Source: Allotamlana fucoidanivorans (GTDB lineage Bacteria; Bacteroidota; Bacteroidia; Flavobacteriales; Flavobacteriaceae). From it: 64,000 bases of DNA. Location: contig NZ_VDCS01000003.1 in NCBI RefSeq assembly GCF_006265225.1, positions 186,001 to 250,000 on the forward strand, read 5' to 3'. Position numbers and translations under genes: made by a program. Of the stretch, positions 41,931-49,146 are shown one piece after another (position 1 is the first letter of the stretch; each line of letters begins with the position of its first letter). The notes beneath the pieces are model-generated. The model made no database searches. It had not been told where the DNA came from and was given only the letters and a program-made list of their open reading frames with translations.

Positions 41931-43208
41931 ATGAAGAACAGAAAAAAAACAGTCTTAAACCTGTTAAATGTATTCCTTTTATTAGTTCCTATTTTTATAT
42001 TGGCACAGGAGACAGAAAAACCATTTAAACCAACATTTAAATGGAATGCTACTGCTCAAATATGGCTACGGTATTCCGATTTAAATCAGGGCTCATTGGT
42101 TAACGGCGAACCCACATCTTCATTTACCGATGTTTCTATAAGACGAATTCGAATTCCTATTTCGGCACAAGTCACACCAAGAATATTTGCCTATGCTATT
42201 TTTGGAGGAAATAATTACAACCTTAAAAGCATGCAAAACCCTATTGAAGTTCTAGATTTTTATATGGAATATGCTTTTTCTAAGCACCTAGAGATAGGTC
42301 TTGGAAAATCAGGATGGCAGGGACTAAGCAGATGGAACGTGCGCTCTAGCAGCACACTCATGGGATTAGATTCGCCACTTTTTTCATTAAATACGGTTGA
42401 AAAAAATGATGACTTAGGCCGACAGTTTGGCCTATGGTTAAAAGGACAGGCAGGACATTTTGATTACCGACTCACCTTTAACCAACCTCGAATAATTACT
42501 AAAGCGCCTGCAAACGGTGTGGTTGATTTTGCTAACAACAGACCGCGCTGGAAGACATCATCATACATTAATTATCAATTCTTTGAAAACGAATCAAATA
42601 AGTCAGCCTATCAAACGGGTACCTACTTAGCAAACAAGAAAGTTTTCAATATTGGTGCTGGTTTTCAATATCAGGAAAATGCATTTAGCGATGGTGATTT
42701 CAACAATCCTAATACCACTTTTTACGACATGAAGCATTGGGCTATCGATTCATATTTAAACCTTCCTTTTGCAAATGAAGATGCTATTACAGCCTATCTT
42801 GGCTATTATAGTTTCGATTTTGGTAAAGATTACATTAGAAATGTTGGCGCTAACAACCCTACTAATGGTGTTACGGATCCTGATTTTAATGGTGCTGGCG
42901 TGGCATTCCCAATGATGGGAACAGGCCCTACCTGGTATACTCAATTTGGGTACGCCTTTAGAAAAACCAAACTTATTAACCACCAAGTTGTTATTCAACC
43001 TAATATTGCCATTCAACACTCCAATTATGATGCCTTGGAAGACAGCATGACAGTTTATGATTTTACGGTAAACTTTTTAGTAAATGGAAAACATGGCAAC
43101 AAAATAAGTTTAGGCTATCAATTACGCCCTATTTTTGATGCGGACACCTTATTAGAGAAAGACAGAAAAGGTATGGCCGTTTTACAATATCAAATATCAT
43201 TTAAATAG
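41931..43208 (+). CDS. Outer-membrane porin, OprP/OprO-like
   Basis: A 425-residue barrel porin from ATG 41931 (a TTG at 41904 would give a poor N-terminus). The signal peptide ends near FILAQ (about 26). The sequence then shows short amphipathic strands, with FTDVSIRRIRIPISAQVTPRIFAY and LEIGLGKSGWQGLSRW, as in phosphate-selective porin relatives. The last residue is Lys after an aromatic (ISFK). Substrate unproven. A long 3' gap leads to the gat leader. Confidence 0.78.
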   Translation: MKNRKKTVLNLLNVFLLLVPIFILAQETEKPFKPTFKWNATAQIWLRYSDLNQGSLVNGEPTSSFTDVSIRRIRIPISAQVTPRIFAYAIFGGNNYNLKSMQNPIEVLDFYMEYAFSKHLEIGLGKSGWQGLSRWNVRSSSTLMGLDSPLFSLNTVEKNDDLGRQFGLWLKGQAGHFDYRLTFNQPRIITKAPANGVVDFANNRPRWKTSSYINYQFFENESNKSAYQTGTYLANKKVFNIGAGFQYQENAFSDGDFNNPNTTFYDMKHWAIDSYLNLPFANEDAITAYLGYYSFDFGKDYIRNVGANNPTNGVTDPDFNGAGVAFPMMGTGPTWYTQFGYAFRKTKLINHQVVIQPNIAIQHSNYDALEDSMTVYDFTVNFLVNGKHGNKISLGYQLRPIFDADTLLEKDRKGMAVLQYQISFK

Positions 43209-43304
43209 ACTAAATATATATCAAAATATTTTTGAGTTTTTTAATAATTCTGCAATTATAGTTTAGCTCCAGCAAAAAATAGTGATAAGTCTATTTATTC
43301 TCTA

Positions 43305-43312
43305 TATATTTG
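43305..43312 (+). promoter_or_regulatory. -7 promoter box (TAnnTTTG) of the gat leader
   Basis: TATATTTG, predicted start of transcription near 43317-43320. At the -33 position the sequence is GTG (43282-43284) with 20-base spacing, one base off TTG. Confidence 0.6.
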
Positions 43313-43330
43313 AAGCTGAATTACATCAGA

Positions 43331-43375
43331 ATGATTAATAATAACAATAATAATTTCAATAATCCTAATTTTTAG
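43331..43375 (+). CDS. Asn-rich leader peptide of the gat operon (14 codons)
   Basis: ATG to TAG encodes MINNNNNNFNNPNF: nine Asn of fourteen residues, six consecutive, mostly AAT with one AAC. It contains no Gln codon. It starts about 12 bases after the predicted transcription start, and the terminator begins 30 bases after its stop. It is the expected sensor of charged tRNA(Asn) for an operon that makes Asn-tRNA(Asn). The caveat is that AAT runs can arise as trinucleotide repeats. Confidence 0.75.
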   Translation: MINNNNNNFNNPNF

Positions 43376-43405
43376 GACGGGGAGGTTATTGTTAAAAAAT
43401 ATATA

Positions 43406-43434
43406 AAGCCTTCCGAATTCGGGAGGCTTTTTTT
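43406..43434 (+). terminator. Attenuator terminator before gatC
   Basis: 10-bp stem 43406-43415 with 43420-43429 (one G-U), AATT loop, seven T at 43428-43434. It ends 17 bases before the gatC start codon, so it would block the operon unless antiterminated. Confidence 0.9.
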
Positions 43435-43451
43435 AATTAAAAATCCAGAGC

Positions 43452-43718
43452 ATGAGTAAAATTATGACAGTAGACATTTTGTCGAGTATTAAAGGAGCAC
43501 AGCCTTCAGAGACTGTAAACAAATTATTTCAGGTTATTAAAGCTGCTAATCCTACAGATAATAATTCTTTTAATAGCAGTCATAATTGTGTATCACTAAA
43601 TAATTTAAGGGAAGATATCGTGATTGATAGTTCTGAAATAGAAAAACAAATCATTATTGAAAACTTTCCTAAAGAAAAAAACGGCTACTTAGTTGTTTCA
43701 AAAGTAATTGAAGAATAG
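43452..43718 (+). CDS. gatC: GatC subunit of Asp-tRNA(Asn)/Glu-tRNA(Gln) amidotransferase, divergent N-terminus
   Basis: An 88-residue protein. The C-terminal half (LREDIVIDSSEIEKQIIIENFPKEKNGYLVVSKVIEE split over about 52-88) matches the GatC end, with its LRED and the proline/VxKVIE tail that wraps GatA and GatB. The N-terminal helical part is poorly conserved and Asn-rich (NPTDNNSFNSSHNCVSLNN). GatC stabilises the GatA-GatB complex. It begins 17 bases after the attenuator terminator and ends 3 bases before gatA. Confidence 0.78.
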   Translation: MSKIMTVDILSSIKGAQPSETVNKLFQVIKAANPTDNNSFNSSHNCVSLNNLREDIVIDSSEIEKQIIIENFPKEKNGYLVVSKVIEE

Positions 43719-43721
43719 TTT

Positions 43722-45122
43722 ATGGACTCTCAAATAAGATCAATCCATCAACAGCTAGTGGATAAAAAAATTACGTGTACTGAGCTAGTACAAAGTAAAC
43801 TTAGCAATTTAAAAGAAAACTCGCACAATACGGTAAATGCTTTACTGGATGATATAGCACTTAAATTAGCAGCCAAAGTAGATGCTAAAATTGCTAGCGG
43901 CGAAACTATTGGTTTACTTGAAGGCATTCCTTTTGGCATTAAAGATGTGTATATGCTTCAAGGTACATGTACAACGGCCAGTTCAGATTTACTTAAACAT
44001 TATAAATCGCCATATACCGCTACTGCAATTCAGAAGCTTTTAGATGCTGGCGCTATTCCTTTAGTAAAAGAAAATTGCGATAGCTTTGGTCATGGATCTT
44101 CAAGTGAAAACACCATTTTTGGCCCTGTAAAAAATGCTATTAACCCAGAATTAGTTGGTGGCGGTTCTAGTGGTGGCTCTGCTGTAAATGTAGCTAAAGA
44201 TTACACGGTATTTTCTATTGGTGGTGATACAGGAGGCTCCATTAGACAACCCGCAGGGTATAATCATGTGTATGGTTTAAAACCTACTTATGGCCGTATT
44301 TCTCGCTACGGATTGATGGCTTACGCCTCGTCTACAGACTGTGTAGGCCCTATAGCTAAATCTATTGAAGATATACTAATTGTTTTAAACACCATGAGTG
44401 GTTTAGATCCTAAAGATCAAACTACCTTTACTTCTGAAACTATTCAAGAAGATGCTATTCTGGATACCAAAAGCATTAAAACCGTAGGTTACTTCAAGAA
44501 TTTTATTGACAGTGAAGCTCTTGATCCGAAGATTAAGGCCGATTTCTTGGCATGTATAGAAAAAATAAAAGCAAAAGGTATTTCGGTGAAGGTGTTAGAC
44601 TTTTTTGAATCAGACACTCTGGTGTCTACCTATTACACCTTGGCTATGGCCGAAACTGCCTCTAACCTGTCTCGATTAGACGGAACAAATTACGGCAACC
44701 GTATTGAGGCCGAAAATTTAAAGGAAACCTATGCTGTAACACGTTCTGAAAACTTTTCTGAAGAAACTAAAAGACGTATTGTTGGTGGAAATCAAGTATT
44801 ATCGCAAGGTTTCTCTGATGAAATTTATTTAAAAGGTCTAAACCTAAGAGATCAAATTTCGCAGAATTTTGAAAAAGATTTTTCTGAAGTAGATATCATC
44901 TTATCGCCTGTTACACCAAGTACACCCCCAAAAATTGGAGATAGCTTAAAAGCCCCCTTGGCCATGTATTTATCTGATGCCTATACGGTGGGTTTCAGCC
45001 TAGGGCAGCTACCAACACTTACCGTACCTCAAGGAACGGCTACAGGCTTACAAATTACGGCTGCTAAAAATAATGACGAACTAGTTTTGAAGTTTGCTAA
45101 CTTCTTAAAAGACACGATATAA
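43722..45122 (+). CDS. gatA: GatA, amidase subunit of tRNA-dependent amidotransferase
   Basis: A 466-residue amidase-signature enzyme that hydrolyses glutamine to ammonia for transamidation of mischarged tRNA. The catalytic Lys is in PFGIKDVY (about 70), the cis-Ser in GGGSSGGSAV, and the nucleophile Ser in GDTGGSIRQPA near 170. The stop shares one base with the gatB-aspS ATG, so the three genes are one tightly coupled operon. The final product depends on GatB and the fused AspRS. Confidence 0.95.
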   Translation: MDSQIRSIHQQLVDKKITCTELVQSKLSNLKENSHNTVNALLDDIALKLAAKVDAKIASGETIGLLEGIPFGIKDVYMLQGTCTTASSDLLKHYKSPYTATAIQKLLDAGAIPLVKENCDSFGHGSSSENTIFGPVKNAINPELVGGGSSGGSAVNVAKDYTVFSIGGDTGGSIRQPAGYNHVYGLKPTYGRISRYGLMAYASSTDCVGPIAKSIEDILIVLNTMSGLDPKDQTTFTSETIQEDAILDTKSIKTVGYFKNFIDSEALDPKIKADFLACIEKIKAKGISVKVLDFFESDTLVSTYYTLAMAETASNLSRLDGTNYGNRIEAENLKETYAVTRSENFSEETKRRIVGGNQVLSQGFSDEIYLKGLNLRDQISQNFEKDFSEVDIILSPVTPSTPPKIGDSLKAPLAMYLSDAYTVGFSLGQLPTLTVPQGTATGLQITAAKNNDELVLKFANFLKDTI

Positions 45123-48100
45123 TGGAACTGGAACAATTAAACGAGTTACTAAAAAAACACGAGTTAGAATTAGTCATTGGTCTTGAAACACATGTTAGAT
45201 TAAACACTAAAACAAAATTGTTTTGTTCTTGTGCCAATGCCGGAGATATTGAAACACCTAATCATAATATTTGTTCCGTATGTACAGGTCAAATGGGGGT
45301 GCTACCGTCTATTAATAAAGAAGCTATTACTAAGGCTATTTATTTTGGAAAAGCCGTAAAATCAACCTTTGAAAACGAAGTAATTTCATGGGACAGAAAA
45401 CATTATGAGTACCCTGACAATCCTAAAAACATACAAATAACGCAATTTCATAACCCGATTATTCCTGATGGTCAAGTATCTTGTTTCCGTAACGACGGTT
45501 CTCAATTTACAGTTAATTTAACTCAGGTTCATATTGAGGAAGATGCCGCTAAACTCATCCATGAAAAGAAAATTTCTCTGGTAGATTTTAATAAAGCTGG
45601 GGTGCCTCTTATTGAAATTGTGACCCAGCCCTGTATACGTCATATTGAAGATGCTTCAACATACGCACAATACATTCAGCGTATTGTTCAAAATTTAGGC
45701 ATTTCTGAAGCTAACTTAGAGAAAGGCGAGTTTAAATCGGATGTTTCTGTATCCCTAAGAAAAAAGCATACGTATAATTTGAATCCTCGTACCGAAATAA
45801 AAAACCTCAACTCCTTTAAATTTATGGTTGAGGCTTTAAAAGAAGAGGTTGAAAAACAACTTAATTACTTTTTAGAGCATAAAGAATTTAGACCAGATCA
45901 AACTACTGTACTGTTTGATGCTGAGCTAAAGCAAACCAAAACCATGCGTAAAAAGGAGTTTGAGGCCGACTATCGTTTTATCTCTGAACCAGATTTACCT
46001 TTTGTAAATATCAAAGAGGTGATTGATGCTATTGAAGTTGATAATAGCGCTTTACCTTTTGCTGTTGAATCTATTTTAATAAAAGGCGGCGTATTACCCC
46101 AAGATGCTAAGTTTTTTACAGCTGACGCTTTACGCTCAAAAACGTTCATGACCATAAACAACGTTATAAAAGACCCGTCTTTTGTGGCAAAAACACTAGT
46201 GAACAATATTGGTGCCGATGAGTATGATAGTATCCATAGAATAGAGCATCTCATTGAAATTTTCCAACTATTTAAAGCTGAAAAAATTACTTCGGTTTTG
46301 GTTCAAAATGCCATTACAGCTTATTTAAAAGACCGAAATTTCAATTACAATCAATATTTTGAAGACAATACCATTTCTGAATCCCAGATAGAAGATGCTA
46401 TTGCTAAAGTTATTTCTGAAAACCAAGTAATTGCCGATGATATTAAAAATGGTAACCAAGGAAAAGCGGGGATTTTAGTAGGTAAAGTTATAGGTATTAT
46501 AGGTAAAGGCGCTTCAGGCAAAGTGATAAGAGCACGTATTTTATCAACGCTAGCTAGCCATGCTATTTCAGCACAACCTTCAGACAAGAACGACAAAAGT
46601 GCTGACCAAGCAAATAACCAACCCGTAGTTTCCAAAAAAGATGAAGAAACACTTTCTGAAATTCCTTTAATAATAAAAGACGAATACCGTACTCATGTTA
46701 TTTCTGAAATCTCAGATGATAATATTGGCAACCAAGTAACCTTAGCGGGTTGGGTTTCTAGCGTACGTGACCACGGTGAACTTATGTTTATTGATTTACG
46801 TGATTCTAGTACACAGATTTTTCAGATAAGACTAAGTCGAGAATCATTTGCTAATCTTGACGACCTTATAAAATTAAAACCAGAATCGGTTATTACCGTT
46901 ACAGGCTCTATTGTACAGCGTGACGAAGATGATTACAACCCTGCTTTAAGAACTGGAAAAATAGAACTCGAGGCTAGTGATTTAGATCTATTAAATCTTT
47001 CAAAAACCTTACCTTTTGAAATAAAAAGAGCAACTAAGTCTAACGAAAATGTACGTTTTCAATACAAATATTTAGACCACAGAAATGATGATGTACGACG
47101 TGTTATAGTTAACCGTCATAAGGTGATTAAACTCATGCGAGATATTTTAGACGCACAAGATTTCTTAGAAATTGAAACCCCTATTTTAAGCGCAGGAACA
47201 GATGAAGGCGCGCGTGAGTTTATTGTACCTACTCGTAAACAATCTGGTTCGTTTTACACCTTACCGCAAGCCCCTCAACAGTTTAAACAAATGTTGATGG
47301 TAAGTGGTTATGAAAAGTATTTTCAAATAGCCCGTTGTTTTAGGGATGAAGATTCTCGTGGGGATCGTCAGCCAGAATTCACACAGTTGGATATAGAAAT
47401 GGCGTATGCTAGCATGCAACAAATTATTGATTTGAACACCAACATGTTCAATTCTATTGTAAAAAAAGTGTACGGCAAAAAATGGATTTTACATCCTTTT
47501 GAAGTATTATCCTATCAACAGGCTATGGATGAATACGGTTGTGATCGTCCCGACCTACGCTTTGGGTTAAAACTAAAAGATATTACCAACATTGTAAAAG
47601 ATACAACCTTCCAAGTATTTAGCAAACCTATTGAAGAAGGTGGTATTGTAAAATGCATCAAAGTATCAACTGAAGAACAAGGCAAAAAGCGTTTATCAAA
47701 AGGGCAGATAGAAAAATTAACTGCTTTGGCGCAACAGCACGGCTTAGGAGGATTGGCTTACATCATAGTAAACGAAAACGACTTGCAATCCCCTATTATT
47801 AAGTTTTTAGGTGAAGATATTGCGGCAAGAATTATTGCCGCTACAAAGGCTCAAGTGGGTGATATTGTATTCTTTTCTGCTGCCGATTATGCCACTGCGA
47901 ATAAAGCACTTGATGCCGTACGCCAAGAATTAGGAAAAATGCTTCACTTAATCAATCCAAAAGAGCTAAGACCAGCCTGGGTTATTGACTTTCCTATGTT
48001 TGAGAAAACAGACGAAGGCAACTGGACCTTCACCCACAATCCGTTTTCTATGCCTGCTATTAAAGACGTGGAAAAACACATGAATGGCAAAGAAGAAGAA

Positions 48101-48466
48101 ATTGGCAGCATCATTGCTCAACAATACGACTTAATATTAAACGGTTATGAAATTGGTGGTGGTTCTGTGCGGGCTCATAAACCAGAAATTCTTGAAGCTA
48201 CTTATAAAAACATGGGCTACAATAAGGAGGACATGATGAAAAGTGTTGGCACCATGTATAAAGCATTTCACTATGGCGCTCCTCCTCATGGCGGTATTGC
48301 TTGGGGTGTTGACCGATTGATGATGATTTTAGAAAAGAAAGCGTCTATTAGAGAAGTTATGGCTTTCCCTAAAACAGGAACCAGTGAAGATTTACTCTTT
48401 GGAGCGCCTTCACCCCTTTCTGATAAAAAGGTAGAAGAAATGAACGTTAGAGTGATAAAAAAATAA
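45122..48466 (+). CDS. gatB/aspS: Bifunctional GatB - aspartyl-tRNA synthetase fusion
   Basis: A 1114-residue fusion. Residues about 1-300 are the GatB kinase-like domain (GLETHVRLNTKTKLFC and the CxC...CxxC zinc site), and about 330-480 the helical and YqeY tail domains. A polar linker (about 485-515) leads to a bacterial-type AspRS: OB-fold anticodon domain (WVSSVRDHGELMFIDLRD), class II core with motif 2 FRDEDSRGDRQPEFTQLD, GAD insertion (near 840-900), and motif 3 GIAWGVDRLMMIL. The His in RDHG matches a residue found in non-discriminating AspRS of Pseudomonas (from memory). It would charge tRNA(Asn) with Asp and convert it to Asn. Confidence 0.95.
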   Translation: MELEQLNELLKKHELELVIGLETHVRLNTKTKLFCSCANAGDIETPNHNICSVCTGQMGVLPSINKEAITKAIYFGKAVKSTFENEVISWDRKHYEYPDNPKNIQITQFHNPIIPDGQVSCFRNDGSQFTVNLTQVHIEEDAAKLIHEKKISLVDFNKAGVPLIEIVTQPCIRHIEDASTYAQYIQRIVQNLGISEANLEKGEFKSDVSVSLRKKHTYNLNPRTEIKNLNSFKFMVEALKEEVEKQLNYFLEHKEFRPDQTTVLFDAELKQTKTMRKKEFEADYRFISEPDLPFVNIKEVIDAIEVDNSALPFAVESILIKGGVLPQDAKFFTADALRSKTFMTINNVIKDPSFVAKTLVNNIGADEYDSIHRIEHLIEIFQLFKAEKITSVLVQNAITAYLKDRNFNYNQYFEDNTISESQIEDAIAKVISENQVIADDIKNGNQGKAGILVGKVIGIIGKGASGKVIRARILSTLASHAISAQPSDKNDKSADQANNQPVVSKKDEETLSEIPLIIKDEYRTHVISEISDDNIGNQVTLAGWVSSVRDHGELMFIDLRDSSTQIFQIRLSRESFANLDDLIKLKPESVITVTGSIVQRDEDDYNPALRTGKIELEASDLDLLNLSKTLPFEIKRATKSNENVRFQYKYLDHRNDDVRRVIVNRHKVIKLMRDILDAQDFLEIETPILSAGTDEGAREFIVPTRKQSGSFYTLPQAPQQFKQMLMVSGYEKYFQIARCFRDEDSRGDRQPEFTQLDIEMAYASMQQIIDLNTNMFNSIVKKVYGKKWILHPFEVLSYQQAMDEYGCDRPDLRFGLKLKDITNIVKDTTFQVFSKPIEEGGIVKCIKVSTEEQGKKRLSKGQIEKLTALAQQHGLGGLAYIIVNENDLQSPIIKFLGEDIAARIIAATKAQVGDIVFFSAADYATANKALDAVRQELGKMLHLINPKELRPAWVIDFPMFEKTDEGNWTFTHNPFSMPAIKDVEKHMNGKEEEIGSIIAQQYDLILNGYEIGGGSVRAHKPEILEATYKNMGYNKEDMMKSVGTMYKAFHYGAPPHGGIAWGVDRLMMILEKKASIREVMAFPKTGTSEDLLFGAPSPLSDKKVEEMNVRVIKK

Positions 48467-48618: not shown

Positions 48619-49146
48619 ATGAAAAAAACCACATGCATTATCACCTCGGTATTTGCTTTTTTGATGCTCATTTCAACTCAGGTACACGCTCAAAAATTCT
48701 CAAAATTAGATAAAAGTCCGCTAGACATTGCATACTACAGAACCGATAGAAAATCACCCCCTATGGCTAAAGTGATATACAGTCGGCCGCAATTAAAAGG
48801 GCGTTCCTTAGAGACATTAGCTCCTAATGGCAAAGTATGGAGAACAGGAGCCAATGAGGCTAGTGAAATTAAATTTTATCAAGATTTGAAATTTGGAGGT
48901 GCTCTGGTAAAAGCTGGCACTTATTCATTATACACCATTCCTAACGAGAGCCAATGGACTATTATTTTAAACAGTGATACAGATGTGTGGGGCGCTTACA
49001 CTTATGATGAGAGCAAAGATGTGCTTAGGGTAAATGCACCCGTATCAAAGGGGGAAAGCATTGAAGCCTTCTCCATAACTTTTGATGCAGACCATATGTA
49101 CTTGGCTTGGGGCACAACTTTAGTTACCGTTCCTATTAGTAAGTAA
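48619..49146 (+). CDS. DUF2911 secreted protein
   Basis: A 175-residue protein with a signal peptide (cleavage near VHAQ, about 25) and the DUF2911 domain: SPPMAKVIYSRPQLKGR, WRTGANEASEIKF and GTYSLYTIPNESQWTIILN. Probably periplasmic or outer-membrane associated; function not established. It converges with queE across a terminator. Confidence 0.85.
   Translation: MKKTTCIITSVFAFLMLISTQVHAQKFSKLDKSPLDIAYYRTDRKSPPMAKVIYSRPQLKGRSLETLAPNGKVWRTGANEASEIKFYQDLKFGGALVKAGTYSLYTIPNESQWTIILNSDTDVWGAYTYDESKDVLRVNAPVSKGESIEAFSITFDADHMYLAWGTTLVTVPISK

Follow-up and report, generated by a model that had tools for sequence, protein, structure and literature searches.

The his, trp and leu leaders are leader-peptide attenuators of amino-acid operons, and the locus described here shares the plan of the amino-acid leader attenuators (Phe_leader RF01859, Thr_leader RF00506): a frame rich in codons for the operon's product, a region 2 just past the stop of that frame, mutually exclusive 1:2, 2:3 and 3:4 pairings, and an intrinsic terminator before the first gene. 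What sets it apart is that its codons are Asn codons and that its operon would make asparagine on the cognate tRNA.

The closest precedent for such a target is reportedly an Asn T-box on the gatCAB/aspS2 operon of Clostridium acetobutylicum (said to have been described by Saad in 2012 and 2013). Its logic is reportedly the same, with uncharged tRNA(Asn) turning on a tRNA-dependent Asn operon that includes an extra AspRS; a T-box, however, binds the tRNA directly and needs no translation, whereas here there is a conserved leader frame and no T-box was found in 42000-46000. A first-pass annotation of this DNA knew of no described Asn-responsive attenuator on an amidotransferase operon in Bacteroidota. 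We found none either in the open-access literature searched, but the regulatory logic has, in the reported Clostridium T-box, this precedent outside the phylum.

Leader-peptide attenuation has been proposed upstream of amino-acid biosynthesis operons in Flavobacterium psychrophilum, a member of the same family as the organism studied here, with elements that include pheA, hisG and alaS (PMC9723704); no Asn leader or gatCAB is named in the section on those elements, and 'asparagin' is absent from the main text. Synthesis of asparagine on tRNA beside an AsnRS is described for Deinococcus radiodurans, Thermus thermophilus and Bdellovibrio in PMC4206432, where, as appears to be the case here, AsnRS and GlnRS are present and GatCAB is partnered by a tRNA(Asn)-charging AspRS. 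Bdellovibrio, like the genomes with GatB considered below, lacks both AsnA and AsnB. The survey of 18 genera in that source gives a second AspRS in five, all from Deinococcus-Thermus and of archaeal type, whereas here a second AspRS of the bacterial type forms a fusion with GatB. No Asn leader-peptide attenuator, and no leader-peptide attenuator on any tRNA-dependent biosynthesis operon, was found in the open-access library searched. This type of attenuation is classical, and its Asn version on these genes appears undescribed in the open-access literature searched.

We consider it very probable that the DNA upstream of gatC encodes a ribosome-mediated transcription attenuator specific for Asn-tRNA(Asn), which controls the tRNA-dependent Asn biosynthesis operon gatC-gatA-gatB/aspS. 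This reading is based on anatomy, conservation, predicted foldings and gene co-occurrence, from which we infer promoter use, translation, stalling, termination and enzyme activities.

Anatomy of the leader and its operon

The window, that is, the whole stretch of 64,000 nucleotides analysed, carries all of the following features on its forward strand. A putative -7 promoter box, TATATTTG, lies at 43305-43312 and matches TAnnTTTG, which we take to be the Bacteroidota -7 consensus; no clear -33 box was found by eye upstream of the leader. The leader peptide MINNNNNNFNNPNF* is encoded at 43331-43375 by 14 codons, and the frame, read off the sequence and backed by 58 homologous frames, runs ATG, ATT, two AAT, one AAC, three AAT, TTC, two AAT, CCT, AAT, TTT and the stop TAG. 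Nine of the 14 codons are therefore Asn, six of them consecutive, and none is Gln. Promoter box, frame length, Asn run and lack of Gln codons had all been claimed in the first-pass annotation and are base-exact.

Four regions that could pair in alternative ways span and follow this frame. Region 1 is the Asn-codon stretch at 43346-43357, defined by the minimum free energy (MFE) fold of the window leader, in which it pairs with 43382-43393, and by the 58 homologues. A small predicted hairpin, TCCTAA/TTAGGA, spans the leader stop codon at 43363-43377. Region 2, CGGGGAGGTTATTGTT, occupies 43378-43393 and opens with CGGGGAGG (43378-43385), two bases past the leader stop; its GGGAGG (43380-43385) resembles the terminator 3' arm and is fully complementary to CCTTCC (43409-43414) in region 3, with which it can pair. 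Region 3, the terminator 5' arm AAAGCCTTCCG, lies at 43405-43415 (assigned from sequence, fold, energy and homologues), and region 4, the 3' arm CGGGAGGCTTT with its T run, at 43420-43434; the hairpin they form has a predicted energy of -17.1 kcal/mol. The terminator stem thus extends over 43405-43430, with the T run reaching 43434, 17 nt 5' of the gatC ATG (43452). Both the offset of two bases from the stop and the distance of 17 nt had been given correctly, and the accompanying statement that CGGGGAGG copies the terminator 3' arm holds as a near copy, since the element has one G more than CGGGAGG (43420-43426).

Neither the frame nor the fold is ordinary for this DNA. The leader RNA has an MFE z-score of -3.47, with 0 of 200 shuffles equally stable. 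A frame made of M, at most six residues and at least six Asn is found a single time in the 64-kb window, at this leader, and never in 100 first-order Markov imitations of that sequence; a chance Asn run was rejected on these imitations together with the 58 homologues.

The operon begins with a divergent gatC (43452-43718, 88 aa), which matches TIGR00135 at 8.3e-5 and PF02686 at 4.5e-4, both under the curated cut-offs. It continues with gatA (43722-45122, 466 aa; TIGR00132 at 1.3e-128 with 429.8 bits, short of the cut-off at 481.1, and PF01425 above its cut-off). gatC falls below both cut-offs and gatA below that of NCBIfam; the two identities rest on profile matches and operon position. The third gene (45122-48466, 1,114 aa) encodes a GatB-AspRS fusion, with NF004012 and NF001750 above their cut-offs, GatB at residues ~13-478, AspRS at ~521-1114, and the Pfam domains PF02934, PF02637, PF01336, PF00152 and PF02938. 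A DUF2911 protein is encoded directly downstream of the operon, at 48619-49146.

In its RDHG motif the fused AspRS carries a His, presumably the mark of relaxed specificity in non-discriminating bacterial AspRS, and on this feature it would be classed among those enzymes. The His occurs in 80 of 80 related fusions as well as in the window, and likewise in 4rmf (named an Asp/Asn ligase); Thermus 1efw has Leu, and the other AspRS of this genome has Lys at the position. The tRNA(Asn) of this genome has U1-A72, the pair that bacterial GatCAB requires according to PMC4206432.

GatB is present in 23 of 149 Flavobacteriaceae genomes, each time in a frame of ~1,120 aa. Elsewhere in the class, 306 of 395 genomes have GatB, among the matches listed mostly as free proteins of ~490 aa with a few longer frames, and in another family of the class all eight genomes searched (L283-L290) have GatB frames of 1,109-1,121 aa. 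None of these eight has the leader within 350 nt upstream of the fusion operon. Since the fusion occurs in this other family as well, it may represent a covalent transamidosome that predates the leader.

From this anatomy, regulation would proceed as follows. RNA polymerase would start just past TATATTTG and transcribe the Asn-rich frame. With Asn-tRNA(Asn) plentiful, the ribosome would reach the TAG and cover region 2, which lies 3-5 nt downstream, leaving the 3:4 terminator to halt transcription before gatC. With Asn-tRNA(Asn) scarce, it would stall in the Asn run and cover region 1, so that region 2 would be free to pair with region 3 and transcription would enter the operon. There, the AspRS half of the fusion would charge tRNA(Asn) with Asp, and GatCAB would amidate the product to Asn-tRNA(Asn). 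Were the leader not translated at all, the 1:2 hairpin would form first and the terminator would still form.

Conservation and predicted folding among relatives

We compared 101 upstream regions: 21 from whole family genomes, 79 from genome-contig loci (nearly all Flavobacteriaceae by title) and the window; L117, whose contig starts inside gatA, and G140, at a contig end, were omitted. A homologous leader precedes gatC in 65 of them (12 of the 21 whole genomes, 52 of the 79 contig loci, and the window), recognised by its peptide pattern, so that a leader quite unlike these would go undetected. As seven of the 65 duplicate a genome counted twice, 58 distinct sequences remain.

These 58 frames have 14-16 codons with 6-10 Asn. 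ATG opens 57 of them and GTG one; 57 end in TAG and one in TAA. In all 58, a TAnnTTTG box stands 10-20 nt 5' of the start codon and the six-base core of region 2 lies 3-5 nt past the stop, and in 57 a run of at least five T follows the terminator stem. The sole exception is L088, in which that run is interrupted (TTTAC). A check for leaders that keep the AAT repeat and have lost the frame, the stop position or the hairpins, as suggested in the first-pass annotation, found the 58 homologues to keep all three.

Codon usage differs along the run. Its upstream part mixes AAT and AAC, with 30 AAT and 24 AAC at codon -12 from the stop and 42 and nine at codon -13; downstream AAT is nearly fixed, and codon -8 is AAT in 58 of 58. 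Because some of the Asn codons hardly ever depart from AAT, nucleotide constraint contributes to the conservation. Within the run, non-Asn codons occur at -9 (Arg in nine leaders, Leu in two, Thr in one), at -11 in one, at -12 in four and at -13, the run edge, in seven of the 58.

The leader is also distinctive by search. On both strands of 80 contig loci (1.0 Mb), 49 of the 50 short frames with at least four consecutive Asn are this leader. A covariance model of it returned 37 matches of at least 97 bits from 397 family genomes, the next scoring 49.8, in a search that used Infernal's stricter filters and included some genomes from which the model was built. gatC and gatA are present at all of the 30 best loci.

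Forced folding of the 58 sequences supports the exclusive pairings. In a transcript ending at region 2, the 1:2 hairpin (at least 6 bp) forms in 58 of 58. When a ribosome is placed over the Asn codons, 2:3 forms in 57, and when it is placed at the stop, 3:4 forms in 58. Terminator and antiterminator are thus predicted to exclude each other in 57-58 of the 58 leaders, with mean energies of -13.1 (1:2), -12.1 (2:3) and -16.5 kcal/mol (3:4). Equilibrium folding without a ribosome, once region 3 has been transcribed, gives 2:3 as well in 49 of the 58; the untranslated state therefore depends on the co-transcriptional order of folding, in which 1:2 comes first.

Covariation, which the first-pass annotation had hoped to see, supports these pairings weakly. 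In the antiterminator 98.8% of 2:3 cells are paired and no covariation was detected among the 58 leaders (500 of 500 shuffles equal the observed value), because regions 2, 3 and 4 are nearly invariant. In the terminator, 23 cells carry changes on both sides where the shuffles give 10.8, and 21 of the 23 belong to one apical pair; the number of pairs with double-sided change, three, is attained by 114 of 500 shuffles and is not unusual. Invariance extends to the five-pair stop-codon hairpin (TCCTA:TAGGA), in which four pairs are identical in all, or all but one, of the 58, and the outer pair is T-A in 40 and T-G in 18. This near-invariant hairpin (43363-43377) and the preceding TTTCAATAATCCTAAT are not explained by a simple attenuation model.

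No leader was recognised by peptide pattern in 36 of the 101 regions, 33 of which were read directly. In 16 of these 36 an exact TAnnTTTG stands no more than 100 nt from gatC, with near matches by eye in others, so a general TAATTTTG promoter in leaderless regions would be too strong a claim. The leader is absent from Algibacter onchidii, the window's neighbour in the tree, and present at L058, the closest sequence by identity. A quick tree built from 80 fusions, of which 53 have a leader and 27 lack one, shows 12 changes of the trait, and well supported branches force at least eight gains or losses.

Asparagine and tryptophan leaders at other operons

Relatives without the gatCAB operon offer a comparison at the genes for other asparagine enzymes. 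Eight of the ten asnA loci found in such relatives were examined, and an Asn-rich frame followed by a terminator precedes asnA in three, two of these with tandem terminators. For asnB, 72 loci were taken from the 109 genomes with a match and 70 were read, the start not being found in two. An Asn-rich frame and then a terminator precede asnB in five of the 70 (L166, L269, L279, L281 and L282); a sixth Asn-dense stretch, at L264, has no terminator and was excluded from this count. A terminator-like hairpin is present in eight of the 70 asnB regions, in five of them together with an Asn-dense frame.

The asnB leaders are unlike the gatC leader in sequence and share its plan, with a possible antiterminator of their own in each of the four inspected for one. 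In L166, L269 and L281, GAAACTTG after the stop could form a helix with the CAAGTTTC of the terminator 5' arm, and in L282 both sides differ in concert, AAAACTTG with CAAGTTTT. The asnA regions with tandem terminators and Asn-rich frames are L169 (G033) and L168 (G007). The second frame of L168, which begins with MTTTRKNNQNNND, meets no stop codon upstream of its terminator, and the simple model does not explain this.

Covariance-model matches of up to 50 bits were treated as chance or as other attenuators, and two, from sister genomes, were read. Both, L235 (G043, ~718-852) and L236 (G263), have a leader frame with two or three Trp codons, a terminator and then a trpE-like gene; the best family for the one such gene scanned is TIGR00564 trpE, at 3e-128 and under its cut-off. 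These Trp leaders are a natural control, in which codon choice follows the operon's product.

Taken with the gatC leader, the asnA and asnB leaders lead us to favour, with some reserve, the view that Flavobacteriaceae have repeatedly and separately put Asn-sensing attenuators before the route to asparagine that they carry, one of three: GatCAB with AspRS, AsnA, or AsnB. At gatCAB, the product, Asn-tRNA(Asn), would be the very molecule that is counted, with no separate synthetase between.

Product of the operon and rival readings

The attenuator may be real and the operon may nevertheless serve mainly to charge tRNA(Asn) or tRNA(Gln), not to supply the cell with asparagine. GatCAB with a non-discriminating AspRS does make Asn-tRNA(Asn) in many bacteria, according to PMC4206432, and two other proteins of this genome score above the cut-off of TIGR01536 (asparagine synthase), at 448.4 and 380.2 against 267.1 bits. 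The same genome, however, encodes AsnRS, a second AspRS, LysRS, GlnRS and GluRS, each above its curated NCBIfam cut-off, and AsnRS is above cut-off in all 22 GatB genomes tested (of 23; G140 was left out). With AsnRS present, and GlnRS here, the operon is not needed for charging tRNA(Asn), nor tRNA(Gln) in this genome; a glutamine route for GatCAB was rejected on the presence of GlnRS. GatB moreover excludes the other asparagine enzymes. Across the 149 family genomes, AsnB was found in 109 (E <=1e-100) and AsnA in ten, with none of the three proteins in 11; AsnB or AsnA occurs in 0 of the 23 GatB genomes and in 115 of the 126 others (Fisher p ~5e-19, uncorrected for the relatedness of the genomes). 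The AsnB threshold was set after seeing the scores of this genome's two Asn-synthase-like proteins (E 6.5e-92 and 2.2e-75), and 108 of the 109 AsnB matches pass the curated cut-off. As those two proteins lie far below the AsnB model NF006949 (308.8 and 254.2 against 499 bits), a second Asn route in this genome seems unlikely. We therefore regard charging as the main role as unlikely. Because AsnRS is present and GatB excludes AsnA and AsnB, tRNA-dependent asparagine biosynthesis fits better, and this, not the cell's route for charging tRNA(Asn), is probably what the operon performs. The earlier label of an indirect Asn-tRNA(Asn) operon probably misplaces its main role. As judged from sequence and co-occurrence, the operon would make the amino acid that its leader is proposed to sense, or charge the tRNA for it.

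Two further readings would dispense with Asn-codon sensing. Control could be independent of translation, through an RNA that binds a tRNA, protein or metabolite in the manner of a T-box or riboswitch, with the Asn frame incidental. The strong nucleotide conservation of the leader and the small variation of TTTCAATAATCCTAAT would suit such an RNA, but an Rfam scan of 42000-46000 returned no family above its gathering score. Its best match was Phe_leader RF01859 (36.4 bits against a gathering score of 55), and none of the four matches up to E 1 was to the T-box covariance model. The frame and stop are, moreover, kept although AAT and AAC replace each other along part of the run, and Asn-rich frames of different sequence stand before asnA and asnB; we hold this reading to be very improbable. 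The other reading, in which the frame encodes a small peptide that has its own function and the terminator behind it is an ordinary one, strikes us as scarcely credible. Conservation of its non-Asn residues (F, NNP) speaks for it, but the promoter box, the spacing from stop to region 2 and the terminator are conserved as a set, and it sits poorly with the Asn-dense frames in most of the terminator-bearing asnB regions.

If this attenuator operates as proposed, Asn joins the amino acids sensed by leader-peptide attenuation, and leader-peptide control reaches a tRNA-dependent biosynthesis operon. The loop at gatCAB would be unusually short, and one regulatory logic could be compared in two forms, executed by a T-box in Firmicutes and by the ribosome here. 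The reading predicts Asn auxotrophy upon loss of the operon, and it would explain why GatCAB has been retained in Flavobacteriaceae that already own AsnRS and GlnRS.
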